From Marivivens aquimaris (GTDB lineage: Bacteria > Pseudomonadota > Alphaproteobacteria > Rhodobacterales > Rhodobacteraceae): a DNA stretch of 64,000 nt. A model generated the notes under the pieces. That model had not been told where the DNA came from. It worked only from the letters and a program-made list of their open reading frames with translations, and searched no databases. Each line of letters starts with the position of its first letter. Position 1 is the first letter of the stretch. Made by a program: the position numbers and the translations under genes. Positions 29,825 through 33,662 of this stretch are shown in pieces. The DNA is taken from contig NZ_JADBGB010000001.1 of assembly GCF_015220045.1 (NCBI RefSeq), positions 372,001-436,000 on the forward strand, read 5' to 3'.

Positions 29825-30091
29825 ATGCGTAAATCACGTTTCACGGAAGAACAGATTGTCCGGATTTTGCAGGAATATACGGCCGGGGCGAAGGTCGCGG
29901 AGCTGTGTCGCAAGCATGGCATGTCGGATGCGACGCTCTACAAGTGGAAGAGCCGGTATGGGGGCATGCAGGTTTCCGAACTGCGCCGCCTGAAAGATCT
30001 GGAAGCCGAGAACGCTGAACTCAAGCGGCTTCTGGCGGATGCCATGCTCGACAATTCGGGTCTGAAAGGGCTGCTGGCAAAAAACTCCTGA
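29825..30091 (+). CDS. IS3-family OrfA (helix-turn-helix, leucine zipper)
   Basis: The 88-residue protein has the IS3 OrfA helix-turn-helix (RKSRFTEEQIVRILQEYTAG, VAELCRKHGMSDATLYKWKS), which recognises the inverted repeats. A leucine-zipper helix follows (LRRLKDLEAENAELKRLLAD) for pairing with OrfAB. GAGGAG lies before ATG 29825. Near its end the codons GCA AAA AAC form the slippery heptamer A-AAA-AAC (30079-30085), after which OrfA stops at TGA. Confidence 0.95.
   Translation: MRKSRFTEEQIVRILQEYTAGAKVAELCRKHGMSDATLYKWKSRYGGMQVSELRRLKDLEAENAELKRLLADAMLDNSGLKGLLAKNS
30079..30085 (+). other. Minus-one programmed frameshift site A-AAA-AAC
   Basis: In the OrfA frame the bases read gcA AAA AAC, a classic slippery heptamer. 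Slipping back one base joins OrfA to the orfB frame, which is open here (LLTPAHRRDAVKTLMADHQ), giving the OrfAB transposase. Confidence 0.8.
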
Positions 30092-30114
30092 CGCCTGCAC
30101 ACCGCCGGGATGCC

Positions 30115-30984
30115 GTGAAGACGCTGATGGCGGATCATCAGTTCACGGAGCGGCGGGCGTGCAGGCTGGTCGGGATTTCGCGGTCGAGCCTGGCCTATCG
30201 GGCACGGCCAGACCGCCATGTGCGACTTCGAGAACGCCTGATCACTCTTTCAGGCAAACACAGGAGGTATGGTTATCGCATGCTGCATGCCAAGCTTGTC
30301 CGCGAGGACTTCAAGGTGAACGTGAAGGTCGTCGAGCGCCTCTATCGGGAGGAGCGCCTATGGCTGCGCCGGACGAAGCGCAAGAAGATCCCGCGCGAGG
30401 CGCGTGAGGGCAGTTGGTGCCCGATCGCTGCCAACCAGCGTTGGTCGCTCGACTTCACCAGCGATGCGTTGGCCAATGGCCGGAAGTTCCGCACCGCCAA
30501 TCTCAAGGACGATTGCACCCGCGAATGCCCGGTGATCGAGGTGGACTTTTCTCTGCCTGGTGAGCGGGTTGTGGAAATGCTGGAGCGGGTTGCCCGGGAG
30601 CGAGGATACCCCGATATCCTGGTCGTTGATAACGGCCCGGAACTTCGTGGTCGGGCCATGGACAGATGGGCCGATGATCACGGCGTGCAGCTGTATTTCA
30701 TCGACCCGGGGAAACCTACGCAGAATGCTTACATCGAGAGCTTCAACGGGCGGTTCCGCGAGGAATGCCTGAACCAGCACTGGTTCACGAGCATCGGTGA
30801 AGCCCGAGAGATTATCGAAGAATGGAGGGCCGATTACAATACGGAACGCCCGCACAGCAGCTTGAAGTATCAGACGCCGGAGGAGTTCGCCGCAGCGCGG
30901 CCCTTCGACAAAACGCAATGGGCACCGACGCTTGAGCTACCTGATGGCTCCGCGCCTGCGCCCATTGCTCACGCAGCCGAATGA
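30115..30984 (+). CDS. IS3-family transposase OrfB (DDE integrase core)
   Basis: The 289-residue stretch holds an N-terminal helix-turn-helix remnant (FTERRACRLVGISRSSLAYR), the HTH_21 region, and the rve/DDE core. The catalytic residues are Asp in WSLDFTSD, Asp in LVVDNGPE, and Glu in AYIESFNGRFREE, with the usual spacing. The end has YNTERPHSSLKYQTPEEFAA. It is most likely made as OrfAB by minus-one slipping at 30079. The GTG at 30115 is only the first possible separate start, and the frame is open further back to the slip site. Confidence 0.95.
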   Translation: MKTLMADHQFTERRACRLVGISRSSLAYRARPDRHVRLRERLITLSGKHRRYGYRMLHAKLVREDFKVNVKVVERLYREERLWLRRTKRKKIPREAREGSWCPIAANQRWSLDFTSDALANGRKFRTANLKDDCTRECPVIEVDFSLPGERVVEMLERVARERGYPDILVVDNGPELRGRAMDRWADDHGVQLYFIDPGKPTQNAYIESFNGRFREECLNQHWFTSIGEAREIIEEWRADYNTERPHSSLKYQTPEEFAAARPFDKTQWAPTLELPDGSAPAPIAHAAE

Positions 30985-31330: not shown

Positions 31331-31355
31331 GGGCATCTCCTTTTTGCGGCGGTGA

Positions 31356-31505
31356 TCGCACCTTTTTCTGGGGCGGTTAGGGTGCGAAGTGCGGAATTCA
31401 GGTGCAATCGCCCGATTCACAAACCTTCCGATCGCACCCTTTTCGCGCCCCGATAGGGTGCGGACTCAAGCTATCGCACCCCCGCGAAAACGCCCTTAAC
31501 GCACC
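31356..31505. repeat. Cluster of GGGTGCGA-type repeats in both directions
   Basis: Within 150 bases the motif (C/T)CGCACC(C) or its complement occurs about seven times: 31356, 31380 (GGGTGCGA), 31401 (GGTGCAA, degenerate), 31432, 31456 (GGGTGCGG), 31474 and 31499. Two pairs form spaced inverted repeats around GGGGCGG/CGCCCC centres. It lies upstream of the truncated antitoxin-like gene and may be its operator region, or a protein-binding or recombination site. Confidence 0.6.
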
Positions 31506-31587
31506 GTCCGCAGGGGTGGTTGACCTACCTCAAGGCGGGCTCTGTTAATTTATGAGATTATCGGGATGTAACAGGAAAGGGCCCCAA

Positions 31588-31770
31588 ATGCTCCGTCTCG
31601 CATCCGTTTTGTACTCCCTGATCTCCACCACACTCGCCGGCACCTTCGTCGTGGCGGCCTTGGTGATGGGGCAGGACACCCTTCAACCCATTGTAATCGC
31701 AGCAGCTTTGGGTTTTGTCGCAGCACTGCCAGTTACGTGGCTCGTCGCCAAAGCGATGGTCGAGCGCTGA
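31588..31770 (+). CDS. Small two-helix membrane protein, cassette copy 1
   Basis: The 60-residue protein is two hydrophobic helices: ASVLYSLISTTLAGTFVVAA, then a short loop (GQDTLQP), then VIAAALGFVAALPVTWLVAK. It is homologous to the 72-residue protein at 32582 (shared LAG, LxxG, PV-W-V pattern). Short proteins of this type are, from memory, common in Rhodobacteraceae and are sometimes mislabelled CTP synthetase, with which nothing is shared. Function is unknown. ATG 31588 follows AGGAAAGGGCCCCAA. A 26-codon gene follows at 31827. Confidence 0.75.
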   Translation: MLRLASVLYSLISTTLAGTFVVAALVMGQDTLQPIVIAAALGFVAALPVTWLVAKAMVER

Positions 31771-31826
31771 CCCGCGACGGAATCCCCGCGCACGTCCGTA
31801 TTACTCCCAAACCAAAGGAGTTAACG

Positions 31827-31907
31827 ATGACCTACGTCTCAGCCACCTACCTGATTTTCCTGGGATTCCTCACCGCTACCGCACTAATTTCGGGCGTCGG
31901 CATCTAA
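31827..31907 (+). CDS. 26-residue membrane peptide, cassette copy 1
   Basis: ATG at 31827 follows a good ribosome site, AAAGGAG, six bases upstream, and the frame closes with TAA at 31905-31907. The product is one hydrophobic helix (TYLIFLGFLTATALISGVGI at its end). It has the same length as the peptide at 32805 and, in an ungapped alignment, eight identical positions: M1, Y8, I10, L15, T16, A19, L20 and I26. Both peptides follow a gene for a small two-helix membrane protein. Possibly a regulatory or structural membrane peptide. Confidence 0.65.
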   Translation: MTYVSATYLIFLGFLTATALISGVGI

Positions 31908-31938
31908 AAAGGCCGCCCCAGTGGGACGGCCCTTAAAA
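31908..31938. terminator. Bidirectional terminator
   Basis: GGCCGCCCC (31911-31919), loop AGT, GGGACGGCC (31923-31931), with one mismatch. An A-run on the left gives a T-run for the minus-strand gene, so it serves the peptide gene and the FMN-barrel gene. Confidence 0.8.
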
Positions 31939-31946
31939 GGTAAATG

Positions 31947-32453
31947 TTAAGCCGCGAAGCGGAAGGTCTTGTGGACCCCGACGTCCGGCAGATGGTCCTC
32001 ATCCATGTTCGCCCGCGCGATCTCAAAACCGAAACGCAGGGAGCTTTCGGTCGAGCCCCAGACCGAGGCGTCAGCCAGCGTCAGGCGCAGCAGCGTGACC
32101 TTCGGATCCTCGCGGCCCTTCTCGAACCACGCGCCGGCAACGGGCGACCACAGCTCGTCCAGTTTCGCTTGGTCCTCGACCTGCTCAAGCGTACCTGCGA
32201 GGCAGGCGTGGAAGTCCTGATCCTTGCCGACAATGCAGTAATGCGCGCGGCCACCAAGGCCCACAGCGCGGACCAGATCGGTGTCCGAAGAGGTAATGAA
32301 ATAAAGGGTATTGGTGTCCCAATCGGTGAAGTGGGTCATCGGCTGCATGTGCTGCGACGAGCCTTCGACGCCCAGCATACCAACGCGGACATCGTCCATT
32401 TTCTCGATGAGAGCGTGGCGCGGATCGTGTTCGATTTCTTTGCGGATAGACAT
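31947..32453 (-). CDS. Pyridoxamine-phosphate-oxidase-like FMN split-barrel protein
   Basis: The 168-residue protein looks like a general-stress-protein-26 type split barrel that binds FMN or a related flavin. Visible strands include VGMLGVEGSSQHMQPMTHFT, TNTLYFITSSDTDLVRAVGL and HYCIVGKDQDFHACLAGTLE, and the C-terminal helix and strand contain LLRLTLADASVWGS. The substrate is unknown. ATG 32453 has AAAGGA nine bases upstream; a TTG start six codons earlier is less likely. It lies between, and opposite to, the two small-membrane-protein cassettes. Confidence 0.85.
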   Translation of the reverse strand: MSIRKEIEHDPRHALIEKMDDVRVGMLGVEGSSQHMQPMTHFTDWDTNTLYFITSSDTDLVRAVGLGGRAHYCIVGKDQDFHACLAGTLEQVEDQAKLDELWSPVAGAWFEKGREDPKVTLLRLTLADASVWGSTESSLRFGFEIARANMDEDHLPDVGVHKTFRFAA

Positions 32454-32581
32454 GGTTTTGCATCCTTTCAATTGCTTGCCAATCCAACGCCGTAGGCGGC
32501 GCGCGGTTCCGTCACGAACACGTCACGGAACGAAGCCCGCCTTTTGCACGTTACTCTCCAAAGCTTAATGAGGAGCAAGTT

Positions 32582-32800
32582 ATGCGTGCTTTACTTTGGG
32601 TCGTCGCCCTGATGACCGCTTCCGCCCTCGCCGGCGCCGCCATCATCATGGTTCTCGCTCTGGGATTTTATACGGGCTACGCGTTAACGCTGGCTGTAGT
32701 GACCGGCCTGATCATTTCCATTCCGGTAAGCTGGGTCGTCACCCGCGCCATCGGCAAATCCGACCCGCACTGGTCGGTCAAACGCGATGCAAAGATCTAA
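32582..32800 (+). CDS. Small two-helix membrane protein, cassette copy 2
   Basis: The 72-residue protein has two hydrophobic helices (LLWVVALMTASALAGAAIIM, then TLAVVTGLIISIPVSWVVTR) plus a charged tail (KSDPHWSVKRDAKI) absent from copy 1 at 31588. Shared residues include SALAG/TTLAG, the central LALG/LVMG, and IPVSWVV/LPVTWLV. GAGGAGC lies seven bases before ATG 32582. The 26-codon gene starts only four bases after its stop, so the two are translationally coupled. Confidence 0.75.
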   Translation: MRALLWVVALMTASALAGAAIIMVLALGFYTGYALTLAVVTGLIISIPVSWVVTRAIGKSDPHWSVKRDAKI

Positions 32801-32804
32801 CACT

Positions 32805-32885
32805 ATGAAGACACTGTATTTTAGCTACATCATCGCCATGGTCGGCCTCACCAGCCTCGCACTGATGACATCGAACTTCATCTAA
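32805..32885 (+). CDS. 26-residue membrane peptide, cassette copy 2
   Basis: ATG 32805 follows the upstream TAA by four bases with no clear ribosome site of its own, so translation should depend on re-initiation. The peptide is a single hydrophobic helix (YIIAMVGLTSLALMTSNFI). It shares length and eight identical positions with the peptide at 31827. A stable hairpin follows directly after its TAA, marking the transcript end. Confidence 0.65.
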   Translation: MKTLYFSYIIAMVGLTSLALMTSNFI

Positions 32886-32887
32886 AC

Positions 32888-32914
32888 GAAAGGGCCGGAT
32901 CACTCCGGCCCTTC
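32888..32914. terminator. Bidirectional terminator-like hairpin
   Basis: AAGGGCCGGA (32890-32899), loop TCAC, TCCGGCCCTT (32904-32913). It separates the peptide gene and the convergent esterase gene. Confidence 0.8.
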
Positions 32915-32918
32915 GCTT

Positions 32919-33662
32919 CTATGCATTCAGGAAACTGCGCACCGCTGCCTCGAATTCCCGAGGCTTCTCGGCATGAAGCCAGTGTCCCGTGCCCGGAATT
33001 TTCGCGAAAACGGCGTTCGGGAACAGCTCTTTGATCCGCGCACGATACTCCGGCAGAACGTAAGTCGACTCGGCGCCTGACAGGAAAAACGCAGGTCCCT
33101 CGAAACGGCCGCTGACCTCAGGAAAACCGATGATCGCATCCATGTTCGCTTCCAAAGCGTCAAGGTTCAGCTTCCAGCGTTTCTCTTTCAGATCAAGGCT
33201 CTGGAGGAAGAACGCCTTCAAACCGTCGTCGATATCACCAAACTGCGCGACCGCATCAGACCGCTGGTCGACCGTCGATAGATCCACCCCCCGCATCCGC
33301 TCGATATTGTCACTCTGGGTATGCGCATAGCCCACAGGCGCGATGTCAGCGACAATTAGCTTGCGCACTTTCTCGGGGTGTTTCAGCGCCAGCATCATCG
33401 ACGCCTTGCCGCCCATTGAGTGACCCAGAACATCCCACTGTCCGTCGATCACCTCGGCCAGATCGTCCGCCAGATGCGGGTAATCATGCACGTCCGACCA
33501 TTCGCTGCTACCGTGGTTGCGCATATCAACAGCCACAACGCGCCGCTCATCCGATAGCCGCTTGGCAATGACGCCCCAGTTGCGGCCCGATCCGAACAGG
33601 CCATGGGCGATCAGCAGATCGGGATTGCCGGTTTTTTCACCGTGGAGAATGGTATTCAGCAT
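32919..33662 (-). CDS. Alpha/beta hydrolase, YbfF-like esterase
   Basis: This 247-residue serine hydrolase shows HGLFGSGRNW (oxyanion-hole region), VDMRNHGSS, nucleophile Ser82 in GHSMGGKA, and the histidine in GTGHWLHAEKP near the end. The N-terminus MLNTILHGEKTGNPDLLIAH and length fit the YbfF group, esterases of short acyl chains, including acyl-CoA in the E. coli protein. The natural substrate is unknown. The start has GAGGTG before ATG 33662, and the gene seems monocistronic, with a dispersed repeat upstream. Confidence 0.87.
   Translation of the reverse strand: MLNTILHGEKTGNPDLLIAHGLFGSGRNWGVIAKRLSDERRVVAVDMRNHGSSEWSDVHDYPHLADDLAEVIDGQWDVLGHSMGGKASMMLALKHPEKVRKLIVADIAPVGYAHTQSDNIERMRGVDLSTVDQRSDAVAQFGDIDDGLKAFFLQSLDLKEKRWKLNLDALEANMDAIIGFPEVSGRFEGPAFFLSGAESTYVLPEYRARIKELFPNAVFAKIPGTGHWLHAEKPREFEAAVRSFLNA

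Follow-up and report, generated by a model that had tools for sequence, protein, structure and literature searches.

A micropeptide family of Rhodobacteraceae that looks like a stress-response output of an ECF sigma factor

Introduction

A 64-kb stretch of the Marivivens aquimaris genome (the window, taken here at its full length) contains the same short arrangement twice: a gene for a small membrane protein, of 60 residues in one copy and 72 in the other, and behind it a hydrophobic open reading frame of 26 codons. The initial annotation read this as a duplicated, coupled membrane pair. Are the two tiny frames genes and, if so, do they belong to the membrane proteins in front of them or to another system? 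Sequence searches easily miss genes of about 26 codons, and a promoter defined on another operon can mark them without use of the peptide sequence, while naming a testable regulator. Here we report that both tiny genes look real. They appear to be members of a Rhodobacteraceae family, as yet without a name, of membrane peptides ~26 residues long, and the peptide has the look of a stress-response gene and not of a fixed partner of the neighbouring small membrane protein.

Results

The layout of the locus was confirmed with its coordinates. The 60-aa gene (31588-31770, plus strand) is followed by micropeptide 1 (31827-31907, plus strand), which has a single hydrophobic span and a Shine-Dalgarno sequence, AAAGGAG, read at 31814-31820 on the same strand. 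The 72-aa gene (32582-32800, plus strand) is followed by micropeptide 2 (32805-32885, plus strand), whose start lies 4 bases past the 72-aa stop codon. Aligned without gaps, the two peptides are identical at 8 of 26 positions (shuffle P=0.009, mean 3.5), as first noted. The gene between both copies, on the minus strand, is indeed a PNPOx-like FMN split-barrel gene (31947-32453; PF16242, E=1.7e-39); among 27 peptide places it adjoins the peptide only in the genome holding the window (G000) and in the nearly identical G295. In many relatives the peptide gene converges with an alpha/beta hydrolase gene, which here lies at 32919-33662 on the minus strand (PF00561).

Two readings of the initial annotation held in part. 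Both membrane proteins had been described as two-helix proteins; hydropathy gives two stretches for the 60-aa protein and, for the 72-aa protein, three peaks that overlap. Each copy had also been said to end in a hairpin terminator. Hairpins do lie 3' of both peptides, but the first (GGCCGCCCC-AGTG-GGACGGCC, 31911-31931) has its U-run, by eye, on the minus strand only, where it suits the FMN gene, and a consensus terminator scan listed neither hairpin. The sigma-70 promoter and terminator scan was uninformative at this locus.

Other features were seen in the vicinity. Upstream of the 60-aa gene there is an operator-like 33-bp direct repeat (GATCGCACC...GGGTGCG, 31354-31386 and 31430-31462, 79% identical), adjoining a 135-aa minus-strand ORF without Pfam match. 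A palindrome, GTTCCGT-N12-ACGGAAC (32506-32531, by eye), lies upstream of the 72-aa gene; it has ACGGAA in common with the sigma element described below, without the spacing of that element. Between lepA and the cassette lies a transposase gene pair (HTH_Tnp_1 and rve, 29825-30984), which we take to be of the IS3 type.

Comparison of the 60-aa with the 72-aa protein shows homology (28% over 47 aa, E=2e-6 in a single comparison), and the two are, by this similarity, diverged paralogues. The 60-aa family is widespread, with a match in 144 of 295 family genomes; the best named matches of the 60-aa protein of the window are Marivivens donghaensis records (95% and 81% identity). Neither membrane protein nor either window peptide had a Pfam or NCBIfam match above cut-off. 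Several NCBI records (e.g. P0011, P0014) name members of the 60-aa family 'CTP synthetase', evidently a misannotation of a membrane protein.

The initial annotation had staked the peptides on conservation of their 26-codon frames in relatives, and similar frames under coding-type constraint do exist there. We scanned 94 deduplicated loci of the 60/72-aa type for a downstream short hydrophobic ORF preceded by a Shine-Dalgarno sequence. Ten had one, always starting at +45 to +59, and these ten are similar to one another; the copy-2 peptides of G000 and G295 fall outside this set because they lack the Shine-Dalgarno sequence that the scan required. A first profile, made from nine of the ten plus copy 2 and blind to position, gave non-seed members in G249, G006, G202, G284 and a second place in G050 (E=1.4e-8 to 1.5e-4), as well as in the same-genus genome G297 (E=6.2e-5), together with a chance-like match in G069 (5.6e-4). 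In the genus search G297 and G295 were the only non-seeds. SD-like sequences precede the starts of the relatives' peptides. Their length ranges from 23 to 51 aa, so the exact 26 residues first emphasised are not a fixed property. The distribution is patchy: 12 of 394 genomes matched at E<=2e-6, and 11 of those 12 are profile seeds.

Alignment of 27 peptides, from which 3 near-duplicates were dropped, gave a frame-0 similarity of 1.358 per column, compared with -0.048 (sd 0.176) for shuffled columns (24 sequences); this test favours frame 0, since a protein profile had supplied some of the peptides. The nucleotide identities at the three codon positions were 0.43/0.60/0.35, position 2 being the most and position 3 the least conserved. 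Between G000 and G295, copy 1 differs by 6 synonymous and 1 non-synonymous codons, and copy 2 by 1 synonymous and 2 non-synonymous, too few to show selection on copy 2.

A profile built without both window copies finds neither of them. For this reason the profile E-values of seed members are a product of construction and were not used as evidence. A fixed-register shuffle test, with the register taken from a MAFFT alignment, supports both copies (copy 1, P=2.5e-4; copy 2, z=4.5, 0 of 20000 shuffles). We therefore place the window copies in the family, as probable members, on position, on the element described next (copy 1) and on the register test. No Pfam or NCBIfam family was matched by more than one of 23 peptide members, and the family profile gave two weak renin-receptor matches only, none named AcrZ, among PDB chains at E<=10. 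The 40-aa member, the only one long enough to query, matched itself alone among 5.8 billion proteins, in a search that needs shared 5-residue words and could miss distant members.

What, then, drives the peptide gene? Beginning 4 bases past the 60-aa stop codon, between that gene and peptide 1, there is a promoter-like element of the ECF sigma type, GCGACGGAA-N14-CGTATTA (31774-31804, plus strand). Of the first 19 peptides, 17 have the same element ~45-65 nt ahead of the start codon, with at most two changes in GCGACGGAA and always with 14 nt between this box and CGT; the only exceptions are copy 2 in G000 and in G295. One of the four exact element sites in G000 precedes an operon 13 kb past the end of the window, which encodes an EF-hand protein, an ECF sigma factor, a 122-aa protein assigned to no family and a Metal_resist (PF13801) protein. 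The sigma factor exceeds the NCBIfam NF009176 (PRK12524) cut-off (307 vs 264 bits). Judged by where it lies in the operon and by a hydrophobic stretch, the 122-aa protein is a putative anti-sigma factor. A match to the sigma factor was found in 255 of 295 family genomes at E<=1e-35; a co-occurrence test of peptide and sigma was dropped, because so common a sigma does not discriminate. The 30 best of the 255 genomes, examined at one locus each, all have the element upstream of the sigma match, at a distance of 616-880 nt (30 of 30), and the gene after the site reads as EF-hand-like in nine genomes (Pfam was run on that of G000 only). Such a position is what one expects of an autoregulated ECF promoter.

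We infer from this position that the sigma factor of the operon reads the element. A site of another regulator would be the alternative, and it draws on the fact that the assignment is made by sequence only. Against it stand the two boxes with a fixed 14-nt spacing, at ~45-65 nt before start codons, and the autoregulatory position at the sigma operon just described for the 30 best of 255 genomes; we hold it to be very improbable.

A weight matrix was trained only on 29 sigma-operon sites, with the own genome left out, so that no peptide sequence entered it. In the whole 64 kb, on both strands, it found one site above 8 bits, at 31772-31807 before peptide 1, with 27.2 bits. The 17 peptides named above score 14.7-32.0, while shuffled 120-nt stretches gave a 99.9% value of 10.0 and a maximum of 17.2 of 11200; four of the 17 (G117, G049, G202 and G050b, at 14.7-16.8) lie below that maximum, and G190 was counted among the 19 at a profile E=0.0125, after its element had been seen. 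The ten 60/72-aa loci with a peptide all score 14.7-27.8 bits downstream of the gene, compared with none above 9.1 bits (L039) among the other 84, two of which are the copy-2 loci. Copy 2 itself lacks the element: the best score is -6.6 in 32381-32600, upstream of the 72-aa gene, and -18.1 before peptide 2.

An enlarged profile, run on 292 order-level genomes, gave 18 new places for scoring, in a scan of 170 nt set against a null made on 120 nt. All 11 with E<=3.7e-4 score 11.5-27.5, although four of these (G416, G404, G573, G413) belong to the genus of a seed and two (G467 and G436) reach just 13.1 and 11.5; of the 7 weaker matches one scores at least 11.5 (G442, 29.4). Two further G295 matches were not counted as new. 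Among 37 weak matches examined, nine had the pattern, comprising seven family-like places (G338, G190, G339, G241, G163, G371, G032), a duplicate (G241) and a match taken to be chance (L248, G346). Those without pattern include G218 (family-like, 9.6 bits), G069, G156 and others, mostly within long frames, as well as G324, whose contig starts at the peptide. Some profile matches had no element: G069 (E=3.6e-4), which lies within a frame of 591 residues and was put down to chance, and the family-like G145, G377 and G534. A count of 23 of 28 for the element is not independent, as six non-seed places were added after the element had been seen; the cleaner counts are 17/19, 10/10 vs 0/84, and 11/11. 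The looser pattern GACGGAAN14CGT was discarded as too weak alone (19 vs 10 for the control in G000). Peptide family, frame constraint, element and the match of the element to the sigma operon can all be read in the DNA itself.

Could the transcript act mainly as a stress-induced small RNA, with the short ORF secondary, as for Pos19 of R. sphaeroides? The short ECF-type transcription unit would suit this, and the effect of Pos19 is reported to persist without translation (PMC5036791). However, the family is conserved at the protein level, with the codon-position pattern and the best frame given above, SD-like sequences stand before the starts, and an Rfam search of 31400-33000 returned only two matches, both far below gathering scores. 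We consider the small RNA unlikely.

The proposed coupling of peptide and membrane protein is mostly not borne out. The promoter element stands between the two genes, and 84 of the 94 60/72-aa loci have no such peptide, which speaks against obligate pairing. In 11 genomes (G297, G249, G006, G284, G190, G338, G339, G241, G163, G371, G032) no 60-aa homologue was found in the 1.4 kb before or the 2.4 kb after the peptide, the flanks being shorter for several of them (~1.1 kb upstream in G006); some of the 11, e.g. G190 and G241, have the gene elsewhere in the genome. Near the peptide, a 60/72-aa gene is present in 14 of 27 places and an opposite-strand alpha/beta hydrolase gene in 18 of 27. Given the 14 of 27 places and the 11 genomes, the 60-aa gene is a common neighbour and not an obligate partner. 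In G297 (L125/L139) peptide and element are kept and the 60-aa gene is, by eye, a C-terminal remnant; a search for the 60-aa gene in this genome found none.

A single membrane complex, duplicated here, whose subunits would be the 60-aa protein and the peptide made from one transcript, would agree with the peptide behind the gene in 10 of 94 loci and with the two copy-2 loci, where it follows 4 bases downstream. Most of the 94 loci, the 11 genomes, the same-genus G297 included, and the intervening promoter argue against it, and we give this explanation very little weight. For copy 2, coupling with the 72-aa gene is plausible, and it is seen in G000 and G295 only.

The reach of the element was followed in the 16 peptide-bearing genomes, where the exact element has 66 sites and the reversed pattern 20; chance would account for about 20 of the 66, and several sit within long ORFs. 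Downstream genes were read for 52 of the 66. The sigma operon stands behind the element in 13 genomes, the nine with an EF-hand-like reading plus G284, G006, G202 and G249, which were counted by the element upstream of sigma. RND-pump adaptor-like genes carry it in 10 of 16 genomes (G000, G295, G117, G296, G049, G190, G249, G298, G299, G284; Pfam HlyD_3 was run on the adaptors of G298 and G000, and the sites of the other six genomes were partly read), and in G000 the adaptor is followed by an RND permease (PF00873). Cytochrome b561-like genes carry it in six (G006, G295, G298, G299, G284, G202; Pfam on that of G298 only). DUF3500 was met more rarely, in two genomes, and single cases are a ferric-reductase-like membrane protein, a second sigma factor, a dioxygenase-like protein, a DUF4405 protein and a zinc-ribbon protein. 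The regulon thereby outlined would extend to an RND efflux pump and, in certain relatives, to cytochrome b561-like genes.

Two side observations concern these sites. A perfect intergenic copy of the element (L159/L169, G000:C1:1466953-1466978, plus strand; L294, G295:C20:203984-204009, minus strand) has no convincing ORF directly after it and, by eye, GC-rich hairpins in G000; it possibly serves a sigma-dependent small RNA. The adaptor genes L280, L222, L208 and L228 begin MRFLRRS..G.FLL..T..L, like the start of some peptides (MRFLP...), which could reflect either common ancestry or just two membrane anchors.

Discussion

The element, the specificity of the matrix and the 11 genomes without a 60-aa neighbour make peptide 1 best read as an autonomous regulon member. 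Taking gene and regulation jointly, and leaving the partner aside, we are fairly confident that it is a micropeptide gene of a conserved ECF-sigma envelope-stress regulon.

We propose the following sequence of events. A signal, from the content of the operon probably periplasmic metal or oxidative stress, would free the ECF sigma factor (NF009176) from its putative membrane anti-sigma factor. The sigma factor would then transcribe its own operon, the HlyD/RND efflux pump and the peptide gene from GCGACGGAA-N14-CGT promoters. Basic N-termini of membrane proteins face inside, by the positive-inside rule. Many members of the family have such a terminus, so the peptide probably enters the inner membrane as one helix with its N-terminus inside. 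Its most likely role there would be to attach to a membrane complex under the same control and to adjust it, in the way that AcrZ acts on AcrB, with the RND pump as first choice; this partner is a guess by analogy, for which we claim little confidence. Copy 2 would be a duplicate without the element, now read behind the 72-aa gene.

Hydrophobic, stress-induced peptides of the TisB kind depolarise the membrane and slow growth. Size, single span and stress-type promoter would fit such an action here, by analogy, but the conserved register with its TS/SS motif suggests a specific contact, and we judge a TisB-like role about as improbable as a small RNA.

In its furthest form, which we hold to be doubtful, our reading would make the peptides a new ECF-sigma-driven family through which a widespread metal/oxidative envelope-stress regulon of Rhodobacteraceae acts, and which, from inside the membrane, would adjust either the RND pump under the same control or the anti-sigma switch itself, with an AcrZ-type function that evolved independently. 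Stress-controlled small membrane proteins are a known kind; among the matches listed from open-licence PMC papers we found no description of this peptide family, of its control or of the sigma regulon.

Several known systems can be compared. The EcfG general stress response uses the promoter GGAAC-N16-CGTT (PMC7083833). It shares with our system a CGTT -10 box and an autoregulated ECF operon, whereas the spacing between GGAA and CGT is 14 in all 30 sigma-operon sites here (16 if counted from GACGG); with this spacing, the element does not fit the EcfG promoter. The heavy-metal regulon of Caulobacter sigmaF-NrsF, with a six-span putative anti-sigma NrsF (PMC3511200), is likewise a small autoregulated ECF regulon of an alphaproteobacterium under metal stress, but its promoter is GTAACC-N16-CGAA and not GCGACGGAA-N14-CGT. 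In Rhodobacter sphaeroides, the sRNA Pos19 depends on RpoE and contains a 150-nt ORF that is translated (PMC5036791), an ECF-sigma-controlled short ORF in a related genus; its 150-nt ORF, its dependence on RpoE and its action as RNA differ from the window peptide, which is conserved in protein frame. Finally, AcrZ of E. coli is a small membrane protein acting with an RND pump (PMC7267776). No chain so named is among the PDB matches of the family profile, the regulator differs, and binding of our peptide to a pump is proposed by analogy only; the likeness lies in the promoter element that, by sequence, the family peptide has in common with an RND pump in 10 of 16 genomes.
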